A DNA stretch of 64,000 bases from Devosia sp. 66-14 (GTDB lineage: Bacteria; Pseudomonadota; Alphaproteobacteria; Rhizobiales; Devosiaceae): assembly GCA_001899085.1 (NCBI GenBank), contig MKVB01000006.1, positions 867,064 through 931,063 on the forward strand, read 5' to 3'. Below the pieces are notes generated by a model. It saw only the letters and a program-made list of their open reading frames with translations. It did not search any database and had not been told where the DNA came from. The position numbers and the translations under genes are program-made. This document shows, piece by piece, positions 1-20,752 of the stretch (the first letter of the stretch is position 1; each line of letters opens with the position of its first letter).

Positions 1-957
1 ACCAGCGAGGTCGAGCATCGGGACAAAGCGAGTTGCTTTGGTGAGGCGGAGTTTCTTGGCCAACGCGTCCAGTTCAAGTTTCGCGATCCGCAGATCGACG
101 CGCTTGCCAATCGCGAGTGCTTCTGTGTCCGCGGATTTTGGCAGTTTGTCGGGGATTTGCGGAAGCGCCGACGGCAGTTTGAAGTTGATGTCGCGACCCC
201 ATAGGCCAAGCAGCCTGACGAGAGCTTCTCGGTCGAGCTCCGACTTCAGCCGTGCTTCGGCCAGACGATTGGACGTTTCGAGATAGACGGCACTGGCCCG
301 CGCCTGATCTATTTTGGTCGCGGCACCCGTCTCACCAAGCTTTACAGTGAACTCGGATGTGAGCCTTGCGCTCTCGCGGGCTTGCTCCAGGAAGGCCTCG
401 GCCTGGCGAGACGCGACCGCAGTGTAGTACGCGCGGCGAGTGTTCGCGGCCAGGTTGAAGGTCGCCTGAACCGCCCGGAGCTGCGCCGCTTCGAAGTCCA
501 ACTTCGCCGCAGCCGTCCTTGAGCCCAGGGTGAAGACTGACAACAGGCTGCCGACCAGTCTGGTCTCGATCTCCAGTTCGTCGCCGGCCAGTATCTTGCC
601 GATCGAAACGACCGGATTTGGGAGACTGCTCGCCTCAACGTAGTCAGCCTCGGAAATGCCGAGCTGATTGTACTCTGCCTGCAGCCCCCGATTATTGAGG
701 AGCGCAAGTCGGACGGCTTGCTCGGCCGACAGCGTGCCGGTGAGAAGTGCGTCCACCTGATGGCGGGCCGTCGTCTCGTCTGCCTCGCTGACGACCTTTG
801 TCGATGCAAAGGTAAGCTCTGAGGTCACCTCCGAGCTTACCCTGCCCATTCCACTGTCCGGTGACAGCGCGGCAGAACAGCCCGCAAGCAGCAGTGCGAC
901 AAAAGGGAAAGCGGATCGGGCAGCCAAGCGCTGCGTCTTCTGCGTGAGGCTATTCAC
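1..957 (-). CDS. TolC-family outer-membrane factor lipoprotein (CusC-like), 3' end outside window
   Basis: Outer-membrane exit duct of a tripartite efflux pump; in this copper-rich setting a CusC-like role in Cu/Ag export is the likeliest, but that is inferred from context. Only the first 319 codons are present and the gene runs off the left edge. A GTG start at 957 gives a lipoprotein signal with lipobox L24-A25-G26-C27. TolC-repeat sequence follows (for example AVRLALLNNRGLQAEY and FNLAANTRRAYYTA, typical of the first coiled-coil/beta repeat). The GTG overlaps the TGA of the upstream small lipoprotein (GTGA), so the two are translationally coupled. Adaptor and RND pump genes, if present, would lie to the left of the window. 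Confidence 0.85.
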   Translation of the reverse strand, partial: MNSLTQKTQRLAARSAFPFVALLLAGCSAALSPDSGMGRVSSEVTSELTFASTKVVSEADETTARHQVDALLTGTLSAEQAVRLALLNNRGLQAEYNQLGISEADYVEASSLPNPVVSIGKILAGDELEIETRLVGSLLSVFTLGSRTAAAKLDFEAAQLRAVQATFNLAANTRRAYYTAVASRQAEAFLEQARESARLTSEFTVKLGETGAATKIDQARASAVYLETSNRLAEARLKSELDREALVRLLGLWGRDINFKLPSALPQIPDKLPKSADTEALAIGKRVDLRIAKLELDALAKKLRLTKATRFVPMLDLAG

Positions 958-1169
958 TTCGAGCCTCCGGCGCTGACGCTACTATTGGACTCCGCCCATG
1001 GGCGTGGTTCCACTGGTTGGTAGTTCTTCGTCTCAGCGGCGACCGAGTAGTAGGGACGAACGGATGTAGTAGCGTTGGGGTCGGCGGCCGACAGCACCGA
1101 GTGCTGGCTCAACTGAGGCGAGCAGGCCGACAACGTCACAGCCAAGGCTGCGAGCGCTATAGGTCTCAT
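954..1169 (-). CDS. small lipoprotein of unknown function, coupled to the outer-membrane factor
   Basis: 71-aa protein with an N-terminal signal and lipobox LSAC (Cys16); the mature part is short, polar and rich in Ser/Pro, with no recognisable domain. It ends in the GTGA overlap with the outer-membrane factor and lies 134 bp downstream of a small Cys-rich secreted ORF, so the three probably form one transcript. Small lipoproteins often accompany metal efflux systems; here the role is unknown. The ATG at 1169 is the only start that yields a complete lipoprotein signal. Confidence 0.7.
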   Translation of the reverse strand: MRPIALAALAVTLSACSPQLSQHSVLSAADPNATTSVRPYYSVAAETKNYQPVEPRPWAESNSSVSAGGSK

Positions 1170-1258
1170 TTTGAGAGTCTCTTGATGTAAACGCGGATTA
1201 GCGGAACGTGCTGCGTAAAGCGCGAGACCGGCCAGGCATCACAACAAGTAAGGAACGC

Positions 1259-1276
1259 GCCGGGATTAAGCCCGGC
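1259..1276 (-). other. hairpin between small Cys-rich ORF and lipoprotein gene
   Basis: Inverted repeat GCCGGG / CCCGGC with a 6-nt loop (ATTAAG), lying between the stop of the Cys-rich ORF (1304) and the lipoprotein start (1169). There is no U-tract, so it could be an attenuator or RNA-processing hairpin rather than a full terminator. Comparable hairpins follow several of the other small secreted ORFs in this window. Confidence 0.4.
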
Positions 1277-1303
1277 AACGGCCGCGATGACAGACGGGAG
1301 CGC

Positions 1304-1684
1304 TTACGAGAGCGCCCATCGCCGAGGCGGCCGTTCGAGCAAGACGACGGGATTGACCGCGTCCGCTAAAGAAGGTGAAGGTTCAGGTAGCCCAGCGACA
1401 CCGGCGAACCAGGGGAAGCCACTTACAAGCATGAGGGGCTGGCAGGCACTGCTGCAGCACGTCGGACCAGCATCGCATGTGTCCTTCGGAGACACGTCAC
1501 AGGGCTTTTGGCTCCGGGCGTGCTTCATGACGTCATCATCATAGTCGGCGCACACCGCCACCTCATGATGCTCAGTCGACACCATGCCATGTGCCATGCC
1601 CGAACTGACCATAGCAAAACTGCTCGCAACGAACGCGAGGACAGCAAACGCAGCGATCACTAGCTTGTGGACGGACCGACCCAT
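1304..1684 (-). CDS. small secreted Cys-rich protein, leader-ORF type (A)
   Basis: About 126 aa from the ATG at 1684; a GTG at 1720 would add 12 residues before the signal sequence. A hydrophobic N-terminus is followed by a cysteine cluster (VCADY, KPCD, DTCDAGPTCCSSAC) and a C-terminus containing ERPPRRW. It has no known enzyme domain. It heads the minus-strand run small ORF - lipoprotein - outer-membrane factor. Size, secretion signal, Cys/His content and the Pro-Pro tail recall the copper-responsive upstream ORFs CopL (Xanthomonas) and CruR/DUF2946 (Bordetella). That assignment is by general pattern, not by alignment. It could instead simply be a periplasmic metal-binding peptide. Confidence 0.65.
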   Translation of the reverse strand: MGRSVHKLVIAAFAVLAFVASSFAMVSSGMAHGMVSTEHHEVAVCADYDDDVMKHARSQKPCDVSPKDTCDAGPTCCSSACQPLMLVSGFPWFAGVAGLPEPSPSLADAVNPVVLLERPPRRWALS

Positions 1685-1885
1685 GGTGCCGGCCAATAGC
1701 AGAGGGCGAACGATTCGCACCAGTGCTAAGTGTTCCTACGTGGTGCCAAGCCGCAACAAGCTGACCACAAACGCCGTCGCAACTCCGGCCTAACAGCTGA
1801 ACCGATGTCGCACATATCGTGCGAACGGTGGCTCCTTGCACTCTCAGCCGGGGCCAATTTCGCGCATGGCAGTTATTTGTCGATC

Positions 1886-2257
1886 CTAGATTTGCTCGGC
1901 GGAACTCGTCGCATTGTTGTTGAACCACTGCTTCTCCCAGCCCCGCATCATGTTGATTTCTCGTGTTTGAGCGGAGATGATGTCGTTAGCGAGCTGCATG
2001 AGTTCCGGGCGACCTGTCTTCTGCAAAACGAGGCGCGCCATTGCTACCGCACTCTCATGATGGACGATCATTTCGTCGATGAACGCGCGCTCGAACTCTT
2101 CTCCGCTCTTTGACTCGAGCTGGGCAGATATGCCGCCCCCTTCCATGTTCATGTCATGTACGACGGGAGTAAGCTGCGAAGGGCTTCGTAGGGCAAGACC
2201 GGCAGCAAAACCAATAGATATTGCGACAATGCTTGCAACAACTAATTTCATATTCAT
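1886..2257 (-). CDS. DUF305 periplasmic protein (CopM-like)
   Basis: 123-aa protein with a signal-anchor (about residues 4-24) and a DUF305 core: FIDEMIVHHESAVAMA followed by DIISAQTREINMMRGWEKQW. In DUF305 proteins the HHxxA helix and nearby Met/His residues are thought to bind copper. It is shorter than the two other DUF305 proteins here because it lacks their extended Met-rich N-terminal part. It stands between the small Cys-rich ORF and the DsbA pair on the same strand, with gaps of about 200 and 75 bp. The likely role is periplasmic copper binding. Confidence 0.85.
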   Translation of the reverse strand: MNMKLVVASIVAISIGFAAGLALRSPSQLTPVVHDMNMEGGGISAQLESKSGEEFERAFIDEMIVHHESAVAMARLVLQKTGRPELMQLANDIISAQTREINMMRGWEKQWFNNNATSSAEQI

Positions 2258-2333
2258 CTTCTTGTTATTTTATTGGGTAATTACCTGAGCTGGCCAAGGG
2301 CCCATATTGGTTTGAGAGTGGCGCTGCGCCTAC

Positions 2334-2786
2334 TCATTCGAAATGTAGCGCGATCTGGTCGCCGTCGCGCATGATGTATCGCGCAGGGTTGGACTCTTGG
2401 CGACCGTTGACGATCACCTGGGCGGGCGATCCGAGCGAAGTGTGTGACCTGTTTAAGAGCGCCCCGAACCCCTCAACGTTGAGGTCCGCTGCGCGCACCG
2501 GTCCAGCTGCAAACTCCAGGTGAACGGTCCCAGACGCGTCATGCGTGTGGACCGCCGACATCGCTATGCGAGCATCGTACCCCGGAGCGCCGATGTAGGA
2601 CGGTCCGACGCCCAGGCTTTCTGGAACTGCTAGCTTTTTGCCTGCAGCGTAGATCTCAACGGTGGCGTGCCAATGCACTCCCGTCTTCGAGATGATCTCT
2701 GGGTCTTGATTTTGCGCGGCCTGAGACCACACTGCGCCAATCACGAGCAGCGAGACCGCAAAACCGACCAACAGGGACGTTCTCAT
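2334..2786 (-). CDS. secreted HWH/HTHD protein of unknown function paired with DsbA
   Basis: 150 aa with an N-terminal signal (about 1-23). The mature part contains two histidine motifs, VHWHATVEIY near residue 38 and VHTHDASG near residue 80, and reads as a small beta-rich domain. I do not recognise a named family. Its ATG overlaps the TGA of the upstream DsbA-like gene (ATGA), so the two are translationally coupled and presumably act together outside the cytoplasm. The paired His motifs could bind a metal such as copper; that is inference. Confidence 0.7.
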   Translation of the reverse strand: MRTSLLVGFAVSLLVIGAVWSQAAQNQDPEIISKTGVHWHATVEIYAAGKKLAVPESLGVGPSYIGAPGYDARIAMSAVHTHDASGTVHLEFAAGPVRAADLNVEGFGALLNRSHTSLGSPAQVIVNGRQESNPARYIMRDGDQIALHFE

Positions 2787-3508
2787 AGTCGCGAAGCAGA
2801 GAGCGCCTGCTCTATCGCGCCCTCGAATGCTGACAACGGTTGCGCCCCGGAAATGACTGCCTTGCCAATGATGGCAGCGGGAGTTCCGCTTATGCCAAGG
2901 GCGCCGCCCTCCGCCTTATCGGCGTCCATTTCTCGCCGATATTCCATGCCCTTTTCTTTCACCAGCGCGGTCACCCTGCGGGTGTCAGTTTCTCCGAGGA
3001 TTGCCGCGGTCAGTTCTCCGATCCTAGCCTCTGTTGCCCAACCGGTATTCTCCGCCCCTTGATTCTCGTAGATGGCTTGGTGCCATTGATAGAATTTCTG
3101 TGGCACGAGTTCCCACACTGCTCGCGAATACTCGGCAAGGGTCTGAGAATCCAATCCGAGAAACTGAAAATCCTTGAACAGGATCTTTAGTTTTCCTGTA
3201 TCGACGTATTTTTTGACGATCACGGGCATAGTCTCAATCTCGTGGCGTTGGCAGAACGGACACTGGTAGTCATACCAGTACGCCATGGTGACCGGCGCAT
3301 CGGCCCTTCCAATAAACGGATCCCCGCTAGCGTCTACTTTTTCGCTGTCTACCACCTGAGTGACTTTTGCAGCGCTGCCGGCCACAGGGCTTCTATCAAC
3401 AGGACCCGCTCGACCGCCCCACACGACTGCTGCGGCCACTATACTTCCTGCGATTATTATCGATGCCGGAATTTTTATTCCGCTGCTCATATTCGTCTTT
3501 TGTTCCAT
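2783..3508 (-). CDS. DsbA-family thiol oxidoreductase
   Basis: 241-aa periplasmic thioredoxin-fold protein. The N-terminal signal-anchor (about 10-30) is followed by the active site YDYQCPFCQRHE (CPFC), an alpha-helical insert, and the cis-Pro loop GISGTPAAIIG near the C-terminus. DsbA-type proteins introduce or repair disulfides in exported proteins, which copper damages. It is paralogous to the DsbA-like protein at 9,652-10,395 (shared AYW(Y/F)DYQCPFC and FQFLG/YQFLG segments). Its stop overlaps the start of the HWH-motif protein. An alternative start is Met7 at 3490. Confidence 0.88.
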   Translation of the reverse strand: MEQKTNMSSGIKIPASIIIAGSIVAAAVVWGGRAGPVDRSPVAGSAAKVTQVVDSEKVDASGDPFIGRADAPVTMAYWYDYQCPFCQRHEIETMPVIVKKYVDTGKLKILFKDFQFLGLDSQTLAEYSRAVWELVPQKFYQWHQAIYENQGAENTGWATEARIGELTAAILGETDTRRVTALVKEKGMEYRREMDADKAEGGALGISGTPAAIIGKAVISGAQPLSAFEGAIEQALSASRL

Positions 3509-3552
3509 TTCATTTTTTTCACATAGCTACTAATCTAACTCATACCGCTGTA

Positions 3553-3957
3553 CTACGGTAGCTTCGCTTGTAGTAGTCCGCGATGTATGAACCGGCGCAC
3601 CGACGAACATTCACCTTCAACAGTGCGAAGACGGTGACGCGCTCCCCGCAGTAGGCCTGGCAATATCAGCAGAGGTTCGCATCGTCCTGCCCTGACACGC
3701 GTGGCAATGGTTAAGATAAGCAACAACAACCCGAGCCCCGTGCGGTCAGGCGGGATCGCATCAAACATCGTTTGCCACATTCGGACATGTTCGAGCGGCG
3801 TCATGGCACACATGTAGCGGCCAAGTTCATGCGACGAGCACCCGGGCATGACGGCGGCGCCGTGTTCCATTATGACGTTCGAGTACGCGACGCTTACGGT
3901 GCCGCCGATAAGGGCCAACGCCGCGAGTATCGAGACAATTCGTCTCCTGATGTGCAT
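3553..3957 (-). CDS. small membrane/secreted protein of unknown function
   Basis: 134 aa from the ATG at 3957, which removes an implausible 13-residue leader. It has an N-terminal signal (MHIRRRIVSILAALALIGG), then MPGCSSHELG and YMCAMTPLEHVRMWQ, a single hydrophobic helix (GLGLLLLILTIA), and a basic tail ending in SSVRRFIHRGLLQAKLP. It is the last gene before the divergent HD-domain gene. The Cys and Met residues before the helix suggest a metal-handling role, but I cannot name the family. Confidence 0.6.
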   Translation of the reverse strand: MHIRRRIVSILAALALIGGTVSVAYSNVIMEHGAAVMPGCSSHELGRYMCAMTPLEHVRMWQTMFDAIPPDRTGLGLLLLILTIATRVRAGRCEPLLILPGLLRGARHRLRTVEGECSSVRRFIHRGLLQAKLP

Positions 3958-4069
3958 ATTGAAATTGTAGCATGGGCCAAGAGCGCTGGGGCTCACGACC
4001 GCGTTGTGTCGATCGCTGATCCGCCAACGAATTTCGAGACAGTCTGCCTGTTGCCGTCGGCTTTGAAGG

Positions 4070-4075
4070 TATATT
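4070..4075 (+). promoter_or_regulatory. possible -10 element upstream of the HD/PurZ-like pair
   Basis: TATATT lies 35 bp before the ATG at 4111, inside an imperfect dyad AAGG-TATATTA-GCCTT that could also be an operator. No convincing -35 lies at 16-18 bp. A GGGGG run just before the ATG serves as ribosome-binding site. Weak call. Confidence 0.3.
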
Positions 4076-4110
4076 AGCCTTGGTGCCTAACCAATGTCGT
4101 TGGGGGCGGC

Positions 4111-5877
4111 ATGAAGACCAATAAGATAAAAGACAACATTCACGGCTACATCTATTTTTCGAAGCTCGAGGGGCTTTATCTCTCCCATCCGCTCGTACTT
4201 CGCCTGCATCATGTCAGGCAAAATGGAGCGGCGTTTCTCACGTACCCAAGCATACGCGTGCACCGCTACGAGCATTCGATCGGCGCAATGCACCTTGCTG
4301 GCGAACTGTTGTTACGTGCCGTGCGATTCTCTGATGATCCGACAATCTACGACACGATCCGTCAATTGGTAGAGCACATCTGCGGCAAGACCATCGGACA
4401 CATTCGATCTGTGTTGGTGAGGCCTTCGTCCAATGTACTTAAAGACAGCCTCTATCATTTACATCACCTGGACGACATAAAAAACGACGATACCCTCGCG
4501 CTACTGCTGATGTTCCAATCCGTTAGAGTTGCGATGCTCGTCCATGACATTGGTCATCCACCATTCTCTCACACGACCGAGATGGCCCTGAAGCAAATGG
4601 GCGTGCGGTATGCGGATCACGAACGTGTCGGCCTCGATCTGCTTGCGCTCATCAACAATGACCTAGAGCGCTCGGCGGATTCCAAGGACGAGTACGCATT
4701 CTCCACATTCATTGCCGATTTGGTTCGCGCAATCGTTGACAAGGAGGATCCTGCGTATCCGCTAGTTCAAGGCATAGCCACGATCGTCTCGGGGGACGTG
4801 GACGCTGATCGGCTGGACTACGTCCAACGTGATGCGTTGTCAGGCGGACTGTCGACGAACTCCTACGATGTTGGACGTCTTTACGACGCCCTCAAGCTCT
4901 GCTCGCAGGAGGGTCCAACTGGTGAAAAACCACCAGCCGCCGTGATGCAGTATCACGCCGCTGCGATGAGCACGCTGGAAGCGTTTTTTAGCATGCGCTT
5001 TCACATGTATCGCTGGATGCTGTTTCACCATTCGGTGATCTTGCAGAACATGGCGTTGGTCCGCATCGCGCATCTTATCCATCAGTTCGGAAGCACTAGC
5101 CAAGGAGATTTGGCCCACGCCTGCAAGGACTTCGTCGACCTCGCGACCAACAAAGCCCGCCGGCGGGAGTACTGGCGGTTCACCGATGCCCACATGCTCG
5201 ATCTAATGACCCGCATCTATGTGGCGATCGAAACGCCCACTGCAACCGACACCGCAACGGTTCGAAGCCTTCGTCGCTACCTGGATACGTTCCTCAATCG
5301 CAGCAAACGGCACTTGGTACCGTTCTGGAAAAGTCCGGCTGACTACGCCCATTTTGCTGAACAGGTCTTTGCCTCGAGCATCGACAGTGCCTCTCGCAGT
5401 GCGGTGGTTCGATTCAACAAGGTGCTCCGTTCGAGGTATAATGTGATCGTGGAAACGGTCAGAAACGAGGTCGCCTCCGGGGCTTCAGGCACCGTGAAGG
5501 AGATGAACAACAGTGACTTTTACTCGTTTCGATTTGCGGCCGAAATCGAGAAGGAGATCAACAGCCGTCTCGCGGGCCACGCGGTCGAGGTTCGCGCCTA
5601 CTACATCGCAAAGTTCAAAGCCACACCTACGAATATGCTGTTGAAGGCGGGCAGTGAGTTTCGCCCCCTAGAAGTCCTTTCGCCGACCATTGCGTCTCTC
5701 GAGACCGCTTGGGACTCGCTCCCTCATTTGTGGTTGTTCCTTGAGCGAACGAGGGATTTTGATGGGGGTGTGAACAGCGTGGAAAGTGAACGGGACGGGA
5801 ACCAATCGACTCTCCAGGACGTGCTACCCGTTGTCGTTGAGGCACTCACCGCATTCGTTCAGGCTATAGACTCATGA
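4111..5877 (+). CDS. HD-domain (d)NTP phosphohydrolase-like protein
   Basis: 588-aa soluble protein of the SAMHD1/dGTPase-like (COG1078-like) HD superfamily. The metal-binding set is visible: RYEHSIGAMHLAG (His55), LVHDIGHPPFSH (His145-Asp146, plus His149) and SGDVDADRLDYVQRDALSGG (Asp near 229-233). Family members hydrolyse deoxynucleoside triphosphates or related phosphate esters; the substrate here is unknown. A C-terminal region of about 300 residues has no motif I recognise. Its TGA overlaps the ATG of the adenylosuccinate-synthetase paralogue (ATGA), so the two proteins are co-translated and probably act on the same nucleotide pool. The flanking copper genes look unrelated, which suggests an inserted cargo unit. 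Phage DatZ is also an HD enzyme but is much smaller. Confidence 0.85.
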   Translation: MKTNKIKDNIHGYIYFSKLEGLYLSHPLVLRLHHVRQNGAAFLTYPSIRVHRYEHSIGAMHLAGELLLRAVRFSDDPTIYDTIRQLVEHICGKTIGHIRSVLVRPSSNVLKDSLYHLHHLDDIKNDDTLALLLMFQSVRVAMLVHDIGHPPFSHTTEMALKQMGVRYADHERVGLDLLALINNDLERSADSKDEYAFSTFIADLVRAIVDKEDPAYPLVQGIATIVSGDVDADRLDYVQRDALSGGLSTNSYDVGRLYDALKLCSQEGPTGEKPPAAVMQYHAAAMSTLEAFFSMRFHMYRWMLFHHSVILQNMALVRIAHLIHQFGSTSQGDLAHACKDFVDLATNKARRREYWRFTDAHMLDLMTRIYVAIETPTATDTATVRSLRRYLDTFLNRSKRHLVPFWKSPADYAHFAEQVFASSIDSASRSAVVRFNKVLRSRYNVIVETVRNEVASGASGTVKEMNNSDFYSFRFAAEIEKEINSRLAGHAVEVRAYYIAKFKATPTNMLLKAGSEFRPLEVLSPTIASLETAWDSLPHLWLFLERTRDFDGGVNSVESERDGNQSTLQDVLPVVVEALTAFVQAIDS

Positions 5878-6941
5878 TCACGATCGTCGTTGGAGCACAG
5901 TATGGCGGGGAGGGAAAAGGCAAGGTATGCGCGTACCTGAGCTATGCGCAGCATTTCGACATTGCGTGCCGCTGCGGCGGGCCAAATTCGTCGCATTCAG
6001 TGCTCCATGGCGGACAACTCTTTAAGCTACGCATGATGCCGGCAGCGGCGGTGCACAACCGCAACATTGATGTCTTCTTCGGCGCGGGGACCCTGCTCCA
6101 TGTGCCGACGCTGCTCCAAGAAATGGCGCTCTTGCAGTTTCGCGGGCGTCTTCTCGTGGACCCGAAAGCGGGCGTTATCAATGAGGACATCGTGGCTGAG
6201 CAGCGACGCGACGATCGCTATGCGGCCATCGGATCCACCTTGACCGGCACGGGGCTCGCTTCAGCCTTGAGGGCGCAACGGAAGCTCCCTTTGGCTGCAG
6301 ACACTGATACGCTCCGCCCATTCCTAGGTGACGTGTCAGCGGAGCTTTGGCGGTCTCTCGCTCGGCGCAACATCCTCGTCGAAGGTCACCAGGGCTTCGG
6401 TTTGTCCAACTACCATGGCGACTATCCATATACGAGCAGCAGGGATTCGACTGCCTCGGCTATGCTGTCGGAACTCGGTATCGGACCGCCCGGTCGTAAC
6501 CTGCTGCGCGTCGTCTTGGCGGTGAAGGCCTTTCCGACGCGTAACCATGCGGGGTCATTGTCGGAAGAGCTCAACGCCCAAGATGCTGACGCCCTCGGCA
6601 TCGCTGAGTTTGGCGGTGGCGCTTGGGGCATTCCGGATCGCCGCCGTCGCGTCGGGCTGTTCGATATGGATCTGTTCAGTCGTGCAATTATGGCCAATGC
6701 ACCGTCTGAAATAGCTCTAACCGGCGCGGATTACATCGATCATACGCTTAGAGGCACTCACAGCGCTCGACGAAGCGAACCGCTCGAAGAGTTTATCGCA
6801 CGCCTCGAGCAGGTTAGCGGCGTCCGGGTACGATATGTCTCGACTGGGCCCGATACGACATCAATGTTTGAACGTCGGCGCTCACACCAGCCCTCGAAGC
6901 GCTCAACCCCAGGTGAGCCTGACCTTTTCTCGCGCAATTAG
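5874..6941 (+). CDS. PurA/PurZ-like adenylosuccinate synthetase paralogue
   Basis: 355 aa, much shorter than the roughly 430-aa bacterial PurA and close to the compact archaeal/PurZ type. Recognisable blocks are IVVGAQYGGEGKGK (residues 4-17), GGPNSSHS (His41 kept), AIGSTLTGTG (118-127), VEGHQGFGLSNYHGDYPYTS (169-188), KAFPTRNHAG, DRRRRVG (255-261), TGAD and STGPD. The normal QWGDEGKGK P-loop reads QYGGEGKGK, so the catalytic Asp is Gly12. The guanine-recognition segment, TKxD in E. coli, is TGAD. PurA ligates IMP and aspartate; PurZ uses dGMP. The substrate here cannot be read from sequence. It is coupled to the HD gene by ATGA. A housekeeping PurA role is unlikely given the active-site change and the location. 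Confidence 0.88.
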   Translation: MITIVVGAQYGGEGKGKVCAYLSYAQHFDIACRCGGPNSSHSVLHGGQLFKLRMMPAAAVHNRNIDVFFGAGTLLHVPTLLQEMALLQFRGRLLVDPKAGVINEDIVAEQRRDDRYAAIGSTLTGTGLASALRAQRKLPLAADTDTLRPFLGDVSAELWRSLARRNILVEGHQGFGLSNYHGDYPYTSSRDSTASAMLSELGIGPPGRNLLRVVLAVKAFPTRNHAGSLSEELNAQDADALGIAEFGGGAWGIPDRRRRVGLFDMDLFSRAIMANAPSEIALTGADYIDHTLRGTHSARRSEPLEEFIARLEQVSGVRVRYVSTGPDTTSMFERRRSHQPSKRSTPGEPDLFSRN

Positions 6942-6953
6942 GCAGCGTCGCTT

Positions 6954-6978
6954 AGCAGCCGTTCCATACGGGGCTGCT
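6954..6978 (+). terminator. weak hairpin after the PurZ-like gene
   Basis: Inverted repeat AGCAGCC / GGCTGCT separated by 11 nt, starting 13 bp after the stop codon. No T-tract follows, so termination activity is uncertain. Confidence 0.3.
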
Positions 6979-7271
6979 GGCTAGCAAACGGCTAGATGAG
7001 GTCTGCCCATCAACGACGCTGATAGGTGCCCGTGGAGGCCCGTGCGTGCTCGCGCCTCTCCAGCGACGGCAGGATCGGTGATGTCTCTTTCTTCGAAGGT
7101 AGATTTGCATCACTCGACCAAGCCTTGAGTTGGCCCAGTCGGGGCAGGCCGGCGTCGGATAAATGACAATGGAGTGCAGTGTATTAGGGGGTATCGGCCG
7201 GCCTCCCTTGTCACGCGCTCGTGATGCCTGGGAGCACCATGTCGCAGAGCGATTCAGCGCGACGAAGTCTA
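6979..7271. other. non-coding gap between PurZ-like gene and multicopper oxidase
   Basis: No convincing ORF on either strand. The one open frame (minus, overlapping the oxidase) has the Arg/Ser-rich composition of a frame shadow. I see no tRNA, repeat or remnant domain. The right end leads into the CueR-type promoter at 7272. Confidence 0.5.
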
Positions 7272-7302
7272 TTGACCTTTCCACCGTTGGAAGCGGCAAT
7301 TT
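7272..7302 (+). promoter_or_regulatory. CueR-type promoter of the multicopper oxidase gene
   Basis: TTGACC (-35, 7272-7277), then a 19-bp spacer carrying the dyad CTTTCC-accgt-TGGAAG, then CAATTT (-10, 7297-7302). The overlong 19-bp spacer with this dyad is the hallmark of MerR/CueR-activated promoters. Near-identical elements precede copZ, copA and the gene at 31,977. The oxidase ATG is 28 bp downstream of the -10. Confidence 0.8.
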
Positions 7303-7330
7303 CCGAGACTGTTTGCAGGAGTAGCCGTGC

Positions 7331-8755
7331 ATGTCCCACTTTAGCCGTCGTTCCGTCCTGGGTGCTTTTGCGGCGTTCGGCGCCGCGTCGATGTTGCCGA
7401 TTGGCTCAACGCAATCCGGTGACCAGTTGCGTCGATTGACTGTCGCGCGGAGGACGCTGGATGTACTCGGACGTGCTGCTTCGGTCTTCAGCATTGTCGA
7501 CGAACATGGTGCTCCTGGAGTGGTCTTGCCCTCAGGGGAGCGCTTTCGCCTCGACCTCGATAACCGCGCCGAAACCGCGACGAGCATCCATTGGCACGGC
7601 CAGACACCGCCGCCTGAACTCGATGGGATCGCAGAGACTGGCTACGTGGCACCGCTCGCTTCCGGTGAGGTGCGCCCCTTCGATTTCATTCCCCGTGCCG
7701 GCACGCACTGGATGCATTCGCATCATGAGCTGCAGGAACAAAGCCTCATGACGGCGCCGCTTATCGTACGATCGCCTGAGGACGAGCAGGCCGACATCCA
7801 AGAGGTCGTCGTTATCGTCAACGACTTTTCTTTCAGGGATCCAGCTGAAATTTATGCCGAGCTCACCGGCGGCGGCACCATGGACCACGGCTCGATGAAA
7901 GGGATGGATCCCTCGAGCATGTCGATGGACGCAATGTCGTCTATGGCTGGCATGGACCTCAACGATGTCGAGTACGACGCATTTCTGGCCAACGATCGGA
8001 CGCTAGCCGATCCACTCGTGGTGACAACCGAGCGCAACGGCCGAGTGCGGTTGCGATTGATAAACGGAGCAGCTTCAACCGCGTTCTGGATTGACCTCGG
8101 AGAAACCAAGGCAACAGCCGTTGCGGTGGATGGCAACCCGATTGCCCCGGTGACAGCAGCACGGTTCCCGCTCGCCCAAGCGCAGCGCCTTGACCTTATC
8201 GTCGACATTGCCCAAGGGGCTATGGTTCCCGTGTTTGCTCAACGGGAAGGCGACATGGCTCGGACCGGACTCATCCTTGCCGCGCCTGGTGCAAAGATCG
8301 AGAAGCTGTCGGCCGTGGCGGATGCTGCGGCAAGTCCCGTTGACCTGTCTTTCGAAGGTTCGCTCCGTGCGGTCTCGGGTCTGTCCGCAAAGGCGGCAGA
8401 CGTTAGGCACTCCGTCATGCTCACCGGCAACATGTCTCCGTACTCCTGGAGCCTCGATGACAAGGTATGGGCCAATCGCCGCAAGCTTGAAGTCGCGGCG
8501 GGACAGCGCGTTGAACTGGAATTCATGAACCACACCATGATGGCCCATCCGATGCACCTGCACGGTCATCATTTCCAGGTTGTCTCAATCAACGGCAAAA
8601 GTCTCGCCGGGGCGATGCGCGATACCGTGTTGGTGCCGTCGATGGGGACAGTGGTGGTGGCATTTGACGCCGACAACCCCGGGCGTTGGCTGTACCACTG
8701 CCACAATCTGTACCACATGATGGCCGGTATGATGTCGGAACTCGTCTACGTCTGA
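7331..8755 (+). CDS. multicopper oxidase (CueO/CopA type), Tat-exported
   Basis: 474-aa periplasmic cuprous oxidase. A twin-arginine signal (FSRRSVLGAF, residues 4-13) fits export of the folded copper enzyme. The four copper-ligand motifs are present: HWHG (87-90), HWMHSHH (126-132), HPMHLHGHHF, and HCHNLYHMMAGMM near the end with a Met axial ligand. A Met-rich insert at 184-208 (MDHGSMKGMD, SMSMDAMSSMAGMD) resembles the Cu(I)-binding segment of CueO. A CueR-type promoter lies just upstream, so it is probably copper-induced with copA and copZ. Its role is oxidation of Cu(I) to less toxic Cu(II). Confidence 0.93.
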   Translation: MSHFSRRSVLGAFAAFGAASMLPIGSTQSGDQLRRLTVARRTLDVLGRAASVFSIVDEHGAPGVVLPSGERFRLDLDNRAETATSIHWHGQTPPPELDGIAETGYVAPLASGEVRPFDFIPRAGTHWMHSHHELQEQSLMTAPLIVRSPEDEQADIQEVVVIVNDFSFRDPAEIYAELTGGGTMDHGSMKGMDPSSMSMDAMSSMAGMDLNDVEYDAFLANDRTLADPLVVTTERNGRVRLRLINGAASTAFWIDLGETKATAVAVDGNPIAPVTAARFPLAQAQRLDLIVDIAQGAMVPVFAQREGDMARTGLILAAPGAKIEKLSAVADAAASPVDLSFEGSLRAVSGLSAKAADVRHSVMLTGNMSPYSWSLDDKVWANRRKLEVAAGQRVELEFMNHTMMAHPMHLHGHHFQVVSINGKSLAGAMRDTVLVPSMGTVVVAFDADNPGRWLYHCHNLYHMMAGMMSELVYV

Positions 8756-8827
8756 GAGGGTCGGCGCAGCACCTAACCATCATGCTGGGTTCCGCGCAGC
8801 CACAGCTTGGCCAAGGCAGGAGAAGAC

Positions 8828-9205
8828 ATGTACAATGCGCTCAAAACCGAGGTGTCTGAGGTACTCGGCATTACCAAGGATGCTCTGCACATTCACATTG
8901 GTTTGGCGATATTCCTTGGCGTCGCATTCATATTCAGGCGGCCGCTGACCAGTTGGATTCCTTGGTTGGTCTTGTTGGTCTTCGAACTTGTGAACGAGCT
9001 CATGGACATTTTCCACGTGCACAACGGCGCGATTGGTTTCGAGGTTGGAGACAGCGCTAAGGATGTGCTGAACACGATGTTCTGGCCTACGGCGGTGCTA
9101 TTCGCGGCGCGGTGGTTGCGGCGACGGAAAGAGAAAGTGGTGGAAATGCAGCTGCAACAAGCCCGCGCATCAGCCTATTCGGACGCCGCCCCCGAACGCG
9201 CTTAG
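8828..9205 (+). CDS. small integral membrane protein of unknown function
   Basis: 125 aa from the ATG at 8828, chosen because AGGAG lies just upstream; an in-frame ATG at 8807 lacks one. It has hydrophobic segments IHIGLAIFLGVAFIF, SWIPWLVLLVFELVNEL and MFWPTAVLFAARWL, with His residues at the helix ends (HIHIG, DIFHVHNG) and a basic/Gln-rich tail. It follows the multicopper oxidase by 72 bp and is probably co-transcribed. I do not recognise the family. Confidence 0.65.
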   Translation: MYNALKTEVSEVLGITKDALHIHIGLAIFLGVAFIFRRPLTSWIPWLVLLVFELVNELMDIFHVHNGAIGFEVGDSAKDVLNTMFWPTAVLFAARWLRRRKEKVVEMQLQQARASAYSDAAPERA

Positions 9206-9252
9206 TGGCGGTGCCTGAAGTACGATGTACTCTTGGTTAAAAAAGGGAACCC

Positions 9253-9588
9253 ATGCGCTTCATGGACATCTGCCTTCGCTGGCTGCTCATTGCGCTGATT
9301 GCCCTGTCTTCTACAGTCGCGCAACCATCTGCCGGTCAAGACGCGGTTTCCCTCTGGACGACGACGGAGAGTCTCTCTAGCGGCTCACCCATTCCGTGCA
9401 CCTCGCACGAGTGTCCAACCGTCCCCTGCCGCACTGCTTGCAGCGGGCAGGCTCCCCTGCCCCAAGCGGTCGCATTGCCGGCTTCGGCATTCCTCATGAC
9501 CAATTGCCAGGTCGCCCGCGCCACCGCGGCAGTCGGCATCACATCCCCACCTGAGCTGCGCCCTCCCTGCGTCGGTCCATCTATCTGA
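9253..9588 (+). CDS. small secreted Cys-rich protein, leader-ORF type (B)
   Basis: 111 aa. Signal sequence (about 1-25), cysteine stretch PCTSHECPTVPCRTAC, and a C-terminus with LRPPCVG. It lies immediately before a dsbA-like gene; the 63-bp gap holds a GC-rich hairpin (9611-9628). A perfect palindrome AGTAC-GAT-GTACT sits at 9219-9231, upstream of its start, and may be an operator. It shares the architecture of the other eight small ORFs described here: probable copper-responsive leader ORF or periplasmic metal-binding peptide. Confidence 0.6.
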   Translation: MRFMDICLRWLLIALIALSSTVAQPSAGQDAVSLWTTTESLSSGSPIPCTSHECPTVPCRTACSGQAPLPQAVALPASAFLMTNCQVARATAAVGITSPPELRPPCVGPSI

Positions 9589-9610
9589 CTTAGACGACTG
9601 CAAGGTACTC

Positions 9611-9628
9611 GCGGCCCCGTTTGGCCGC
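9611..9628 (+). other. hairpin between small Cys-rich ORF B and dsbA-like gene
   Basis: GCGGCC / GGCCGC with a 6-nt loop in the 63-bp gap before the dsbA-like gene. Position and size match the hairpins after other small secreted ORFs, which suggests attenuation. No U-tract is seen. Confidence 0.4.
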
Positions 9629-9651
9629 TGCGCGAATATGGCGAGGACGAC

Positions 9652-10395
9652 ATGAAACGACGTATATTTGGGACCAGCCACACCCTGGCCGTGAGCGCCG
9701 CGGTGCTGCTCGCTGGTGGAATGGTAGCCTGGGCAACTGTTTGGGGATTCGACCGAATTGCGGACGAGGTGCGCATCGGGGCGCTCGCTTCGGCAGAGTC
9801 AAACGCGCCGCAAGTTGCTGCTCCAATCGCGGTATCGTTCGATGACGTCTCGTTGAAGGACGCACCGTTCATCGGCTCGGCTACCGCTCCAGTGGGTATG
9901 GCGTACTGGTTCGACTACCAGTGCCCGTTCTGCCGGCGAGTGGAACAGGAGGTCATGCCCCGCCTAATCGAGGAGTATGTGAAGCCCGGCAAACTTCGCA
10001 TCTATTTCAAGGACTATCAGTTCCTTGGACGGGACTCCTACGAAGCTGCGGTCGCGTCACGGGCAGTATGGGAGGTCGCTCCCGAATTGTTTGGAGCGTG
10101 GCATAGCGCCCTGTTTGCGCGTCAGGATCGCGAGAACGGAGGCTGGGGTAATCGGGACGACATTTTCGCACTGCTCGAGACCATTCCTGGCCTTGATGTG
10201 AGCAAGGTGAAGCAGTTGATCACTCAGAAAGTCGATGAGTATGTCGCCCGCATGGACCGTGACCTTCAGGAAGGCGGTCGCTTTGGCGTCCAGGGAACTC
10301 CCGGCACTGTAATCGGTACGCGACTTATTTCCGGAGCCGAGCCATTTGAGGAGTTCCAGGCTGCGATCGAAGCCGTTTTGAACAAGACCCCTTGA
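9652..10395 (+). CDS. DsbA-family thiol oxidoreductase (second copy)
   Basis: 247 aa. N-terminal membrane anchor (LAVSAAVLLAGGMVAWATVW), active site FDYQCPFCRRVEQE, cis-Pro loop GVQGTPGTVIG. It is clearly paralogous to the protein at 2,783-3,508 over its length. Expected role: disulfide formation or repair in exported proteins under copper stress. It is headed by small ORF B and followed at 114 bp by a transglutaminase-like protein. Confidence 0.9.
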   Translation: MKRRIFGTSHTLAVSAAVLLAGGMVAWATVWGFDRIADEVRIGALASAESNAPQVAAPIAVSFDDVSLKDAPFIGSATAPVGMAYWFDYQCPFCRRVEQEVMPRLIEEYVKPGKLRIYFKDYQFLGRDSYEAAVASRAVWEVAPELFGAWHSALFARQDRENGGWGNRDDIFALLETIPGLDVSKVKQLITQKVDEYVARMDRDLQEGGRFGVQGTPGTVIGTRLISGAEPFEEFQAAIEAVLNKTP

Positions 10396-10509
10396 GGGGA
10401 TGGTAAGCAGAACCTAAAGGTCCACGCCGCAATTTGGCGCAAAGTTTTCTGACAATTCTTTGGATCGCTAAAGCGGCGGCGGCGAATGTCGGCTCAACAG
10501 GGGGCCAAC

Positions 10510-11112
10510 ATGAAATCCGTCGCCGCGCTCGCGCTGCTTGCTTTGTTCTTTGCGACTCCGGTCATTGCCAGCACCGACGAGTTCACAGATCCGGCGTACG
10601 CTCAAGTGCAGGGGCCAACCAGCACCCCAATCGGCCACTACGAATTTTGCAGGTCACACGAAAGCGAATGCGGGGCGCTCAGCGGGCCGTCGGCGACGAC
10701 GCTTACCGAGGAGCTGTGGGCTCAACTGCAGCAAACAAACAACGCGGTCAACGCGAACATAGCCCCGGTGACTGACCAGGACCTCTACAGGGTCGCCGAA
10801 TACTGGGCCTATCCAAACGGCGCGGGCGACTGCGAAGATTATGTGCTCGAAAAGCGTCGAGAACTTCTGGCGACGGGTTGGCCGGCGACGACACTGCTGA
10901 TGACCGTCGTTCGCAAGAAGAATGGCGAAGGACATGCGGTTCTGCTTGTCCGCACGGACCGCGGTGATCTCGCCCTCGATAACCTCGACGGCGAGATTCA
11001 CCTTTGGAACGAGACGCCCTACTCCTACCTCAAACGTCAGTCGCAGACCGACGCTTCCAAATGGGTCGACCTTGATGACGATCGCATCATTCAGGTGGCG
11101 TCGATGCATTGA
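10510..11112 (+). CDS. BTLCP-type transglutaminase-like cysteine peptidase
   Basis: 200-aa secreted protein from the ATG at 10510 (GGGGG ribosome site just upstream). After the signal peptide the transglutaminase-like triad is visible: GDCEDYV (Cys), EGHAVLLV (His) and a downstream DNLDG (Asp). Members of this bacterial family (DUF920) are periplasmic and often partner LapD-type or envelope proteins; the substrate is unknown. It ends 26 bp inside the 3' end of the convergent PBP gene. Its neighbours suggest an envelope role. Confidence 0.85.
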   Translation: MKSVAALALLALFFATPVIASTDEFTDPAYAQVQGPTSTPIGHYEFCRSHESECGALSGPSATTLTEELWAQLQQTNNAVNANIAPVTDQDLYRVAEYWAYPNGAGDCEDYVLEKRRELLATGWPATTLLMTVVRKKNGEGHAVLLVRTDRGDLALDNLDGEIHLWNETPYSYLKRQSQTDASKWVDLDDDRIIQVASMH

Positions 11113-12817
11113 CGAGGCTGGCCTGCAGTTCGGGCGGCACCAGGTACGCATCGAGCGTATCGTCGAAATTGGGTGGAAGTCCGAGCATCGGCGCGGTGCG
11201 CTGAATGATCCGGCCGGCGACTTCGCCCGCGTTCCAACCTGCCGTGGTCCCCGATGTCGGGCCTTCAGCCTTCGGTTCATCCACGATCACAAGCAGCACA
11301 TACTGCGGATCGTCGATTGGGAAGGCGGCGGCAAACGTGTTGAGGTTCTTTTCCGAGGAGTAGCGGCCGTCGATCACCTTCTCAGCGGTGCCGGTCTTAC
11401 CACCGACCCGATAGCCGCTAGCGATCTTGTTCATCCGCGTACCCGAGCCGTCGAGTGCGTTTAGCCGCATGAGATATCGTATCCGAGTACTGGTGCCTTC
11501 AGAGACCACCCGCCGGTATGTTCGCTGCGCATCCGCAAGCGAACGTGGATAGAACGTCGGCACAATGTAGTTGCCCCCATTGACGAGAGCTACCATGGCC
11601 GCGGCCATGTGAAGGGGGGTGATGCTCAACCCGTGCCCAAAGGCCGCGGTCGCCGCGGTCACGTCTGAAAATACCTTGGGGACGTTGGTTCTGGCGCGCT
11701 CCGGCAGCTCCGTTACGAGCGGATCATCAAACCCAATTTTGGTGAGGAAGGCCCGGTACTCGTCCTTGCCGAGCGCCTGGACCATTTTGATCGTCCCGAC
11801 GTTCGATGAGTATTTGTAGATTTCGGGTACGGTGAGGATGCGATTTTGCCCGTGAAAGTCGTTGATCGTGAATCGACCGAACCGCACACCGCTGCTGGCA
11901 TCGAAGCTATCGAGCAGTGTCACTCTTCCGCTATCGAGCGCCGCCGCAAATGCGATGGATTTGAACGTCGAGCCCAGTTCGTATGCGCCTGCGGTGATCC
12001 GGTTGAGGCGTCCCTCAAGCAGCGCCGAAACCGGCTCGTTGGAATCGAAGTCGGGCAGCGAGGCCAGGGCCACGATCTCGCCGGTCTTTGCGTTGATCAT
12101 CACTCCCGCTGAGGCAATTGCCTGGTAGCGCAGAAGAGCGTCGGACAACTCTGACCACATGGCGTACTGTACCCGCAGGTCGATCGACAGTCTGACCGGT
12201 GAAAGCGTCTGCTCACGCGCGATGCCAATGTTCTGCAGCAACGCGATACCCGTTTCATCAACTGCCTTCTCCATTCCCGAGATGCCTTGGCTGTCAATGT
12301 TCGTCGTGCCGACCAAGTGCGAACTTTCCGAGCCGCCTGGGTAGAATCGTTTGCTCTCGGTCAAATAGTCGATTCCCGGCAAACCGAGCGCCATGATCTG
12401 CTCCCGGACGGCAGGGCTAACCTCTCGCTTGATCCAAACAAATCCCTTGTCGCCGGTCAGGCGATCGCGCAACTCGGTGGCGTTGAGTTCAGGGACGACG
12501 GAACGCAGCTTCGTCACTGCTTCCTCGAGGTCGACGATCCGCCGCGGTTCGCCGAAAATGGATGGCACACGAATGTCCACCGCCAGGTCGAGACCGTTGC
12601 GATCAAGTAGCGGAGGTCTCGAAGCCTCAATGGCATCGCGCTCGCGCCCTTCAATTGCCGTGGTTGGTCCGGTCTGCGTGTATTGGGTGAGCCGAAATCC
12701 GACGACCGCGAAGATCATCACCATAACCAAAACGACAACGCGGATGCGCGAACGCACCATCCGGTCCTGACTGCGGCGAATGCCGACAATCGTGATATCT
12801 AGGCCGGTCAAAGCCAT
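11087..12817 (-). CDS. PBP2/FtsI-type class B penicillin-binding protein (accessory copy)
   Basis: 576 aa. Single N-terminal membrane anchor (about 24-44), PBP-dimerisation region, then the transpeptidase domain with SxxK (Ser283-Lys286 in GSTFKS), SxN (Ser337-Asn339 in YSSNVG) and KTG (Lys474 in GGKTGTAEK). It crosslinks peptidoglycan by the D,D route. A housekeeping ftsI normally sits in the dcw cluster; this copy is isolated in a copper island. It follows the His-rich ORF C by 66 bp with a hairpin between. GAGG upstream of the ATG at 12817 supports the start. Confidence 0.92.
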   Translation of the reverse strand: MALTGLDITIVGIRRSQDRMVRSRIRVVVLVMVMIFAVVGFRLTQYTQTGPTTAIEGRERDAIEASRPPLLDRNGLDLAVDIRVPSIFGEPRRIVDLEEAVTKLRSVVPELNATELRDRLTGDKGFVWIKREVSPAVREQIMALGLPGIDYLTESKRFYPGGSESSHLVGTTNIDSQGISGMEKAVDETGIALLQNIGIAREQTLSPVRLSIDLRVQYAMWSELSDALLRYQAIASAGVMINAKTGEIVALASLPDFDSNEPVSALLEGRLNRITAGAYELGSTFKSIAFAAALDSGRVTLLDSFDASSGVRFGRFTINDFHGQNRILTVPEIYKYSSNVGTIKMVQALGKDEYRAFLTKIGFDDPLVTELPERARTNVPKVFSDVTAATAAFGHGLSITPLHMAAAMVALVNGGNYIVPTFYPRSLADAQRTYRRVVSEGTSTRIRYLMRLNALDGSGTRMNKIASGYRVGGKTGTAEKVIDGRYSSEKNLNTFAAAFPIDDPQYVLLVIVDEPKAEGPTSGTTAGWNAGEVAGRIIQRTAPMLGLPPNFDDTLDAYLVPPELQASLVNASTPPE

Positions 12818-12845
12818 AGGAAAACCTCATGTCATGAGTAGGCGA

Positions 12846-12865
12846 AACGGCCTTCACAGGCCGTT
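12846..12865 (-). other. hairpin between His-rich ORF C and the PBP gene
   Basis: AACGGCC / GGCCGTT with a 6-nt loop in the 66-bp gap. A second short dyad (TTCGAGCTCGAA) follows at about 12864-12875. A possible attenuator between the leader-type ORF and the PBP. Confidence 0.45.
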
Positions 12866-12883
12866 CGAGCTCGAAACGTGAGG

Positions 12884-13210
12884 TCAGGTACGCGGGGGTC
12901 GCTTGAGGCCGAATTCGATCGAGAAACGCCGGCTCAGCGTGCTCGCTTTCAGGGGGTGATGTTCACGCGGTGCCAAAGTGAACCGTAGCGACGACATCAT
13001 CCCAGGCGTGGCATGGGCATGCTCGGCGCTCGCATGGGTATGGCCATGGGCGGCGCTATGCGTCTGGCTCGCGGAGTGAGCGACGGCAACACTCATCGAA
13101 GCATCGCCCAGCCGATCCCAACCCAACGCCTGGCTGGGCGACAGGTGTGTGAAGCTCGTCAGGACGACGAGCACCAGGATGAGCAGACGGTGGATAACGA
13201 TTTTGAGCAT
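12884..13210 (-). CDS. small secreted His-rich protein, leader-ORF type (C)
   Basis: 108 aa. Signal (about 1-28), then a His-rich stretch (HSASQTHSAAHGHTHAS, EHAHATPGMM), APREHHP, and the tail GLKRPPRT. No Cys. It is divergent from Cys-rich ORF D and stands upstream of the PBP gene. The motif GTTAACCAAAC, 34 bp before its start, also occurs 38 bp before the His-rich ORF I at 34,614. Likely binds copper or zinc, or acts as a copper-responsive leader. Confidence 0.65.
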   Translation of the reverse strand: MLKIVIHRLLILVLVVLTSFTHLSPSQALGWDRLGDASMSVAVAHSASQTHSAAHGHTHASAEHAHATPGMMSSLRFTLAPREHHPLKASTLSRRFSIEFGLKRPPRT

Positions 13211-13250
13211 CTGTGGAAGCGCGTGCCTCCAAATTGTCGCCTTGGTTTGG

Positions 13251-13266
13251 TTAACGCTCTGTTACA
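13251..13266 (-). promoter_or_regulatory. candidate regulator site between divergent ORFs C and D
   Basis: TTAACGCTCTGTTACA on the plus strand. It matches TTAACATTCTGTAACA at 21190-21205 in 13 of 16 positions. On the minus strand both read as approximate 10-bp direct repeats (GTWAC-N5-GTTAA), typical of OmpR-family response regulators. The adjoining GTTAACCAAAC is shared with 34565-34575. The regulator is not identified. Confidence 0.4.
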
Positions 13267-13340
13267 TGTCGCAGGCTGGGGGCGAGACAATTCACCACGC
13301 TTGTCTACGCGAACATCGGTCGGCACAGTAGAAAGTACCT

Positions 13341-13670
13341 ATGAGCGCCTCGCTACGACTCGTCCTGATAGTGCTGTTGACGGCTATTCTCGGCTACGCG
13401 AGCGTGGCCGCGGCGGCGCATGGTGCCTCGAATGGCGTTCGGCAGGACACTTCCGTGGCTACCGAACAGGTCCGCCCCGACTGCGGTGATGCCTGCGTGC
13501 ATGGTGCCCCGATCTGTGTCGACATGTGCGCGGCCACATTCGCTGGTTTGCCGAGTGCAGCTACTGAAGACGGCTTTGGCCGCTTGAAGGCGCCCCACGA
13601 GCCTTGGCCTATCGTGCCTATGACGGGGCTCGTTTCCTCGCCGCTGCTTCTTCCTCCTATCGCATCGTGA
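13341..13670 (+). CDS. small secreted Cys-rich protein, leader-ORF type (D)
   Basis: 109 aa. Signal (about 1-25), cysteine cluster RPDCGDACVHGAPICVDMC, and a C-terminal PLLLPPIAS. It is similar in pattern to ORF H at 34,152 (SSCEACRLHTIPSCVELCVG and NPPIA tail), so D and H look paralogous. It stands upstream of the M23 endopeptidase gene with a short hairpin (13680-13695) between. Confidence 0.62.
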   Translation: MSASLRLVLIVLLTAILGYASVAAAAHGASNGVRQDTSVATEQVRPDCGDACVHGAPICVDMCAATFAGLPSAATEDGFGRLKAPHEPWPIVPMTGLVSSPLLLPPIAS

Positions 13671-13679
13671 CGTACTGAC

Positions 13680-13695
13680 ACCGGCCTGAGCCGGT
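13680..13695 (+). other. short hairpin after Cys-rich ORF D
   Basis: ACCGGC / GCCGGT with a 4-nt loop (CTGA), starting 10 bp after the stop of ORF D and about 100 bp before the M23 gene. Weak terminator or attenuator candidate. Confidence 0.4.
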
Positions 13696-13795
13696 GATCA
13701 GCATTCAGGACGGCATGATTGGGCTGCCCCGATCCGTGTCCGTTGCCCTGTGTTCTCGTACTCCAGAAGCAGTCTGGAGTGACCGTAGGACGACC

Positions 13796-15799: not shown

Positions 15800-15902
15800 G
15801 CACCTGAATCCTCCTCTCACCGCGCGCAGGCAGCTGCTTTCCATCGGACGCGTGCCTGCTCACCTCAACCCAAGCATTTTCGTACAACCGTGGAGTATAC
15901 CA

Positions 15903-16592: not shown

Positions 16593-16613
16593 ACGTCAGC
16601 CTGAGGTTGCGTG

Positions 16614-17045: not shown

Positions 17046-17053
17046 GAACGGAA

Positions 17054-17719: not shown

Positions 17720-17779
17720 GATCATCTCCAAGCAGAGGTGGCCTCCGCCACCACCATCAGCCTACGCCGCGCGCGCCCT

Positions 17780-18307: not shown

Positions 18308-18315
18308 GGCTGTAG

Positions 18316-18343
18316 GAATGAGGGCGCTCACGCGCCCTCATTC
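18316..18343 (-). terminator. hairpin between DUF305 and cytochrome b561 genes
   Basis: Perfect 12-bp stem GAATGAGGGCGC / GCGCCCTCATTC with loop TCAC, between two same-strand genes. Probable partial terminator that lowers expression of the cytochrome b gene relative to the DUF305 gene. Confidence 0.65.
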
Positions 18344-18348
18344 AACAC

Positions 18349-18816: not shown

Positions 18817-18818
18817 TT

Positions 18819-20089: not shown

Positions 20090-20092
20090 GCA

Positions 20093-20692: not shown

Positions 20693-20738
20693 GAAGAGTT
20701 CCAGATGTCTGATTGACACGGAGCGCCTGGCGCTGTGA

Positions 20739-20752
20739 CTGATCGCGATCAG
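20739..20752 (-). other. perfect palindrome at the end of small ORF F
   Basis: CTGATCGCGATCAG, a 14-bp perfect palindrome spanning the stop of ORF F and the gap before the c556 gene. Operator or hairpin; function unknown. Confidence 0.35.

Follow-up and report, generated by a model that had tools for sequence, protein, structure and literature searches.

A recurrent, mobile gene pair joining a SAMHD1-like HD protein to a divergent adenylosuccinate synthetase paralogue, and its possible role in nucleotide-targeting defence

What does a bacterial gene pair do that joins an HD-domain protein to a paralogue of adenylosuccinate synthetase (AdSS)? The question is raised by a locus of Devosia sp. 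66-14 that lies in the stretch of DNA analysed here (64,000 nucleotides, positions 867,064 to 931,063 of contig MKVB01000006.1; hereafter the window). The answer that we favour, tentatively, is that the two genes encode a nucleotide module of two enzymes that travels as cargo on mobile elements and would most likely serve as an anti-phage (or anti-mobile-element) system. An initial annotation, made from the letters of the window, had described an HD-domain protein with intact metal residues followed by an AdSS paralogue, the two genes overlapping by ATGA, and in each of these respects the locus is as described: both open reading frames (ORFs) match the corresponding Pfam families, and an ordinary PurA, with Asp13 present and the P-loop QWGDEGKGK intact, is encoded elsewhere in the same genome, so that the AdSS of the window is a paralogue. 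Scans of the pair region for promoters, terminators and Rfam families returned nothing above chance.

The pair recurs. When the genome_contigs collection (84,980 species) was scanned with a degenerate P-loop pattern in which Asp is disallowed at the catalytic position, at least 118 loci were recovered, and 2 of the 118 loci listed contain the same pair, one in a metagenome-assembled genome (MAG) of the Afifellaceae (L193, G390:C4) and the other in a MAG of the Xanthobacteraceae (L084, G389:C1). Because it is found again in these two genomes, the pair is more than a chance neighbourhood and is not unique to the window genome, uniqueness being an outcome that the initial annotation would have counted against its proposal. 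In all three copies the genes are adjacent, with order and strand conserved; pairwise identity among them is 42–50% for the HD proteins, 58–60% for the AdSS proteins and 23–47% for shared genes of the element backbone. The ATGA overlap is seen in the window copy alone, gaps of 14 and 7 nt separating the genes of the other two copies, given the start codons chosen by the ORF picker. Strong relatives of the HD protein were limited to its own gene in samples of 101, 289 and 398 genomes and to G390 in a sample of 397, and a search of 385 genomes with the window AdSS at 1e-40 gave two matches, G390 and G871; these samples overlap in part, and the number of copies of the pair is at least three. The G871 match was rejected as a pair, since on reading it proved to be a kinase–PurZ fusion whose P-loop has Ser and which is accompanied by a DUF7002-type gene.

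By its intact site and its fold, the first gene of the pair is predicted to encode a triphosphohydrolase acting on deoxynucleoside triphosphates (dNTPs) and resembling SAMHD1 and EF1143. HD enzymes of this kind split triphosphate off dNTPs. All 17 HD proteins in the alignment share residues H55, H145-D146, H154, H170-E171 and D233, and the whole-length fold of the window protein matches the SAMHD1/EF1143 type, with which it shares metal and catalytic residues at about 18% identity. It differs from these enzymes in having an AdSS partner and in its allosteric motif: the residues that read guanine, which we take to be Q142 and R145 of SAMHD1, are Gln and Arg in 13 of the 14 other HD rows, whereas the motif is LRLHH in all three copies of the pair. 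Between His55 and the HD motif the three copies also have more residues (90–99, versus 35–53 in 13 of the 14 other HD proteins).

Table 1 Features of the gene pair and of the element that carries it, in window coordinates
Feature	Position	Strand	Basis or remark
HD-domain dNTP triphosphohydrolase-like protein, 588 amino acids, first gene of the pair	4111..5877	+	ORF; Pfam HD 2.6e-5
Divergent AdSS paralogue, 355 amino acids, second gene of the pair	5874..6941	+	ORF; Pfam Adenylsucc_synt 3.3e-45
HD metal ligand His55 (HRYEHS motif)	4273..4275	+	Invariant 17/17; role by homology
HD metal ligands His145-Asp146	4543..4548	+	Invariant 17/17; role by homology
Catalytic-type pair His170-Glu171	4618..4623	+	Invariant 17/17; role by homology
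HD metal ligand Asp233 (DADRLDY motif)	4807..4809	+	Invariant 17/17; role by homology
Gly12 in P-loop QYGGEGKGK, at the position of the PurA catalytic Asp13	5907..5909	+	Gly in 3/3 window-type copies
Asn224-His225 in place of Val-Gly (V241 of S-2L PurZ, near the ribose 2' position)	6543..6548	+	TRNH in 3/3 copies
Trp-Gly-Ile-Pro-Asp replacing the tip TTVT of the aspartate-binding loop	6624..6638	+	W[GD][IL]P[DN] in 3/3 copies
Right part of the ~82-kb integrative element with the pair	1..38423	.	Left end at tRNA-Phe G000:C6:823189-823264, beyond the window
Right attachment-site repeat, 18 bp identical to the 3' end of tRNA-Phe	38406..38423	+	Single occurrence in the window

The second gene encodes a protein with the AdSS fold whose nearest structural relative is archaeal PurA. 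AdSS enzymes phosphorylate a 6-oxo group and then add an amine, and in PurZ, the relative that phages use for 2-aminoadenine, loss of Asp13 accompanies the use of (d)GMP. The window protein retains Lys15, His41, Gln173, Arg136, Arg258 and Arg259; Asp13 is replaced by Gly, and Lys331 of the PurA GTP site by Gly284. Among the 133 other PurZ-like domains in the matches listed, the Asp13 position is Ser in 126 and Gly in 7, of which only the Ser/Gly split is informative, because the pattern that found nearly all of these domains excludes Asp. In the same 133 domains the tip W[GD][IL]P of the altered loop does not occur, and the position of S-2L T276 is Thr or Ser in 132. The position of S-2L V241 is Val in 132 and Ile in one, and the pairing of Asn224-His225 with Val-Gly is an ungapped reading against PurA at a place where MAFFT put a gap. 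A role of the TTVT loop in aspartate binding is described in section 7 of PMC8342488. The protein also misses the NCBIfam purA equivalog cut-off (194.4 of 395.55 bits), and the short archaeal PurA of Pyrococcus horikoshii (PDB 5k7x) differs from it in retaining both Asp13 and the aspartate loop, GTVTGR.

These replacements bear on whether the pair might simply serve ordinary metabolism, with a surplus AdSS for purine salvage and a housekeeping dNTPase captured together by chance on one element. Such an origin would suit a protein whose fold is nearest to archaeal PurA and an HD fold that is itself common; it is nonetheless quite improbable, as PurA's Asp13, its Lys331 and the threonines of its aspartate loop have all been lost, the host already has a PurA and the pair has been kept together in three genomes.

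With the PurZ and PurZ0 enzymes of phiVC8, S-2L and Archimedes, the window AdSS shares the fold, the retained His41, Gln173 and phosphate-binding residues, the loss of Lys331 and the replacement of Asp13, which is Gly in the window protein and Ser in the phages (PMC12884076). Section 24 of that source describes a PurZ group of four archaeal and 147 phage sequences, that section listing none from bacteria, with Ser at the Asp13 place in 147 of 147 phage sequences and Ser or Gly in the four archaeal ones. The window protein departs from these enzymes in having W[GD][IL]P for TTVT and Asn-His at Val241-Gly, in residing on a bacterial mobile element near which no phiVC8-type polymerase was found, and in its placement: in a quick tree (71 rows, three PurA sequences as the root, SH-aLRT support only, two long branches flagged) the window clade falls outside a 65-row set (SH-aLRT 98) that contains all phage PurZ and the other PurZ-like rows. 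The initial annotation had rightly called the protein PurZ-like, and Asp13 is replaced as in PurZ, but in this tree the protein is not placed within the PurZ clade.

If the preferred reading of a nucleotide-targeting module holds, the HD protein would, like SAMHD1 and EF1143, take the triphosphate off at least one of the dNTPs, and the AdSS-like ligase would use a nucleoside triphosphate to activate a guanine-type nucleotide ((d)GMP) at O6 and attach an amine there. The amine is probably not L-aspartate, because the aspartate loop is replaced, and for the same reason, the replacement being present in all three copies, the succinylated product that the initial annotation had proposed is doubtful. 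The product might then either control the HD enzyme or serve as a faulty nucleotide. From the sequences we infer a ligase that aminates guanine nucleotides at position 6 and takes an altered amine donor; together with the dNTPase it would form a mobile defence aimed at nucleotides. The broader proposal of a nucleotide-modifying or nucleotide-depleting system is still the best description of the locus in view of the intact HD site, the AdSS fold, the altered loop and the linkage. A bolder version, which we regard as doubtful, is that the ligase catalyses a new reaction, placing a non-aspartate amine on the guanine 6-oxo position to yield an undescribed nucleotide that works with the SAMHD1-like dNTPase in a mobile immune system; were this true, the window AdSS would branch outermost in a large group of PurZ-like operons of bacteria that has gone unstudied. 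The replaced loop thus poses one cheap biochemical question, namely which amine the enzyme uses.

A design of this general form is known. In Clover, an HD dGTPase (CloA) and a nucleotide-making partner (CloB) constitute a proven defence system (PMC12265719). The window pair is likewise made of two genes, for an HD dNTPase and a nucleotide-making enzyme; CloB, however, is a Pol-beta nucleotidyltransferase, whereas the partner here belongs to Adenylsucc_synt. The analogy leads to an alternative that we consider unlikely, in which the AdSS-made nucleotide would be a signal, and never a DNA precursor, that restrains or triggers the dNTPase effector, much as CloB restrains CloA. The two-gene plan of Clover and the guanine-type allosteric motif changed to LRLHH in three of three copies would both accord with such signalling, but the changed allosteric site may simply be one that has been lost.

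A second alternative looks to phages: the pair might make 2-aminoadenine (Z), or some other altered base, for the element's own DNA and so evade host restriction, through PurZ-like synthesis combined with DatZ-like removal of dATP. In phage phiVC8 the genes for a dATP triphosphohydrolase (p25) and PurZ (p27) do lie close together, so that Z-cassettes resemble the window pair in placing an HD enzyme near a PurZ-like one, and the pair is indeed mobile-element cargo. We nevertheless judge this alternative decidedly unlikely, given the loss of the aspartate loop, the position of the window clade outside the PurZ set of the tree and the failure of phiVC8 DNA polymerase I to match (phmmer) any ORF of the three neighbourhoods. 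That polymerase result and the size of the HD protein, 588 amino acids against DatZ genes of 513 and 528 bp, bear out the initial annotation in its view that this is not a whole phage Z-cassette. Queries with DatZ and MazZ also gave no match in the three neighbourhoods, a weak negative because the same queries were blank in viral loci too. No viral copy emerged when IMG/VR was scanned with single proteins (the AdSS and the HD protein of the window, and the HD protein of G390), scans that reach close relatives only; P-loop pattern scans of viral sequences returned 13 and 45 stretches, in which the AdSS proteins have Ser, or in one case Gly, and retain the aspartate loop. Matches of the HD protein to phage and plasmid records by tblastn (21–28% identity) were rejected as pairs, no AdSS gene adjoining the match in the 4 records examined of 27. 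One of these, L017 from Sinorhizobium, has genes for a DncV-like nucleotidyltransferase and a ThiF protein nearby.

As to its setting, the pair is cargo of an integrative element of about 82 kb in tRNA-Phe, as indicated by the tRNA gene itself, the attachment-site repeat and a shift in GC content. The 18-bp repeat is followed by a one-base gap and nine further matching bases; in 3-kb bins, GC is 0.56–0.64 inside the element (mostly 0.57–0.60), 0.647 before it and 0.63–0.68 after it. In the window genome, where alone the element ends were located, an ORF named integrase-like from its sequence lies at the end of tRNA-Phe, the order maf–tRNA-Phe can be read from the ORFs, and a Phage_integrase gene confirmed by Pfam (L205:15872-16954, 6.3e-32) lies 21 kb inside the element. 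A 16S search of this genome gave no match; the maf–tRNA-Phe order would point to an alphaproteobacterium. Apart from the pair, what blastp shows the neighbourhoods to have in common is the backbone of integrative elements: TraG/TrwB-like ATPases, tyrosine recombinases and Replic_Relax proteins are common to all three, and a CHC2-primase-type protein and an HTH protein to two of the three. For Replic_Relax, hmmscan of L205 was positive where an earlier family search of the window genome had been silent, as had its control. When the conjugation ATPase of G390 was searched against the three whole genomes (E<=1e-5), 8 of 8 matches, the query included, lay within 41 kb of a pair. The tyrosine recombinase of G389 (L207:10319-11221) may not be the integrase of the element and may belong to an IS91-like transposon, since it adjoins an ORF that reads like an IS91-type transposase. 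The G390 pair is also near a tRNA-Phe, and in G389 a tRNA-Gly starts 313 bp after the AdSS gene.

The initial annotation had placed the pair in a copper island with no related genes. The island is part of the integrative element, and the absence of related genes holds inside the window only, because the element beyond it carries Bil genes (BilA 3e-45, BilB 8e-43, BilD 5e-130) and, beside them, a thymidylate synthase-like gene adjoining an aGPT-Pplase3/ADDT gene (L205:2220-4389, G000:C6:830283-832452). The latter family is that of alpha-glutamyl/putrescinyl thymine pyrophosphorylases. Near the G390 pair, at 14.5 kb, is a gene for a protein whose first 126 residues match PADLOC PDC-M68A (1e-24) and endonuclease-effector models, and a type IIG restriction-methylation gene lies 25 kb from the G389 pair. 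Defence genes are thus found within 15–45 kb of all three pairs, in line with the recurrence beside such genes for which the initial annotation had proposed a test, with no control density to set against it. Within the window the element also carries metal-resistance genes (7331-30946), including two multicopper oxidases, a heavy-metal P-type ATPase and a DsbA-like protein. Separately, we note a 247-residue protein matching the PADLOC model mad2 (16976-17719, 1.6e-11) and, just inside the right attachment site, a 432-residue protein with a weak match to type II restriction enzymes (36869-38167, PADLOC 3.9e-9).

Several observations weigh against a defence function. The nearness of defence genes comes from 19 hand-picked neighbour proteins, and their density was not controlled for; the metal-resistance genes mean that cargo of this element need not be defensive; and only three copies of the pair were found among the matches listed. 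With PADLOC 2.0.0 the window AdSS has no match, the HD protein matches the dGTPase model (4.8e-7) over 33 residues only, and a full match of the pair to a known defence model was not reached. At the level of the enzymes, replacement of Asp13 by Gly could also mean lost activity, though the rest of the site is retained, and regulation of the HD protein may differ from that of SAMHD1 because the guanine-sensing allosteric residues are changed. On balance a defence role would still be the likeliest single reading, unproven as it is, and the pair is a real, recurrent and mobile two-gene module with possible new chemistry among nucleotide-targeting systems. Bacterial immunity is increasingly seen to act on the nucleotide pool (dGTPases, dCTP deaminases, Clover), and the coupling of an HD dNTPase with a purine 6-aminating enzyme would bring new chemistry to this field; if this is true, the 2-aminoadenine enzymes of phages would be linked to relatives in cells that need no phage to act, and the origin of PurZ would become testable.

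Beyond the pair itself, genes for PurZ-like AdSS proteins are found across many bacterial genomes (at least 104 loci). The AdSS-like ORF falls in the main cluster in 104 of the 118 loci listed, with Ser at the Asp13 place in 96 and Gly in 8; N-terminal fusions of more than 120 amino acids occur in 42 of the loci listed, the single one scanned being P-loop-kinase-like. Within 1.5 kb of the PurZ-like genes are DCD-like genes (42 of the 118), DUF7002 (30), IrrE/macro (17), deoxynucleoside kinase (11) and YfbR-like HD genes (8), counts that come from automatic clusters named after one or a few scanned members, one of which (cluster 0) contains both AdSS and kinase-like partners because of the fusions. 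The corresponding count of HD motifs misses L084, where the locus stops within the HD gene, and that for L107 is a false motif in a DCD-like protein. Among the matches listed, the DCD-like cluster is represented at 43 genome loci and at no viral locus, and phiVC8 polymerase matches occur at 6 of 45 viral loci and at none of the genome loci (of up to 8 kb), which together argue against the bacterial loci being plain remnants of Z phages. A literature search brought up no title dealing with a pairing of HD and AdSS genes or with PurZ-like operons of bacteria, in a coverage that left most subscription journals outside.

An AdSS paralogue in a plasmid cluster of Rhizobium leguminosarum (L012:5369-12932), which also holds folE, purB, queE, IMP dehydrogenase, nitrile hydratase and queC and looks like a 7-deazapurine nucleoside pathway, raises the last alternative, that the window pair is part of a small pathway for a nucleoside antibiotic or specialised metabolite. 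We hold this to be very improbable: the AdSS of L012 retains the Asp, and in the ORFs adjoining the three pairs no purB, phosphoribosyltransferase or export gene was seen in ORF lists and partial Pfam results, there having been no dedicated search. Many of the PurZ-like loci (L076-L193; examples are L120:3732-6697, L124:299-4133 and L109:3633-7305) have one of the partner genes named above beside the AdSS gene, or an RNase_H_2-kinase gene. In L013 a PurZ-like gene and a UvrD helicase gene lie a few kb apart, and on a Sinorhizobium plasmid (L014:8606-11453) a PurZ-like/DCD-like pair stands next to ThiF (E1-like), JAB and DUF7665 genes resembling a Bil operon.

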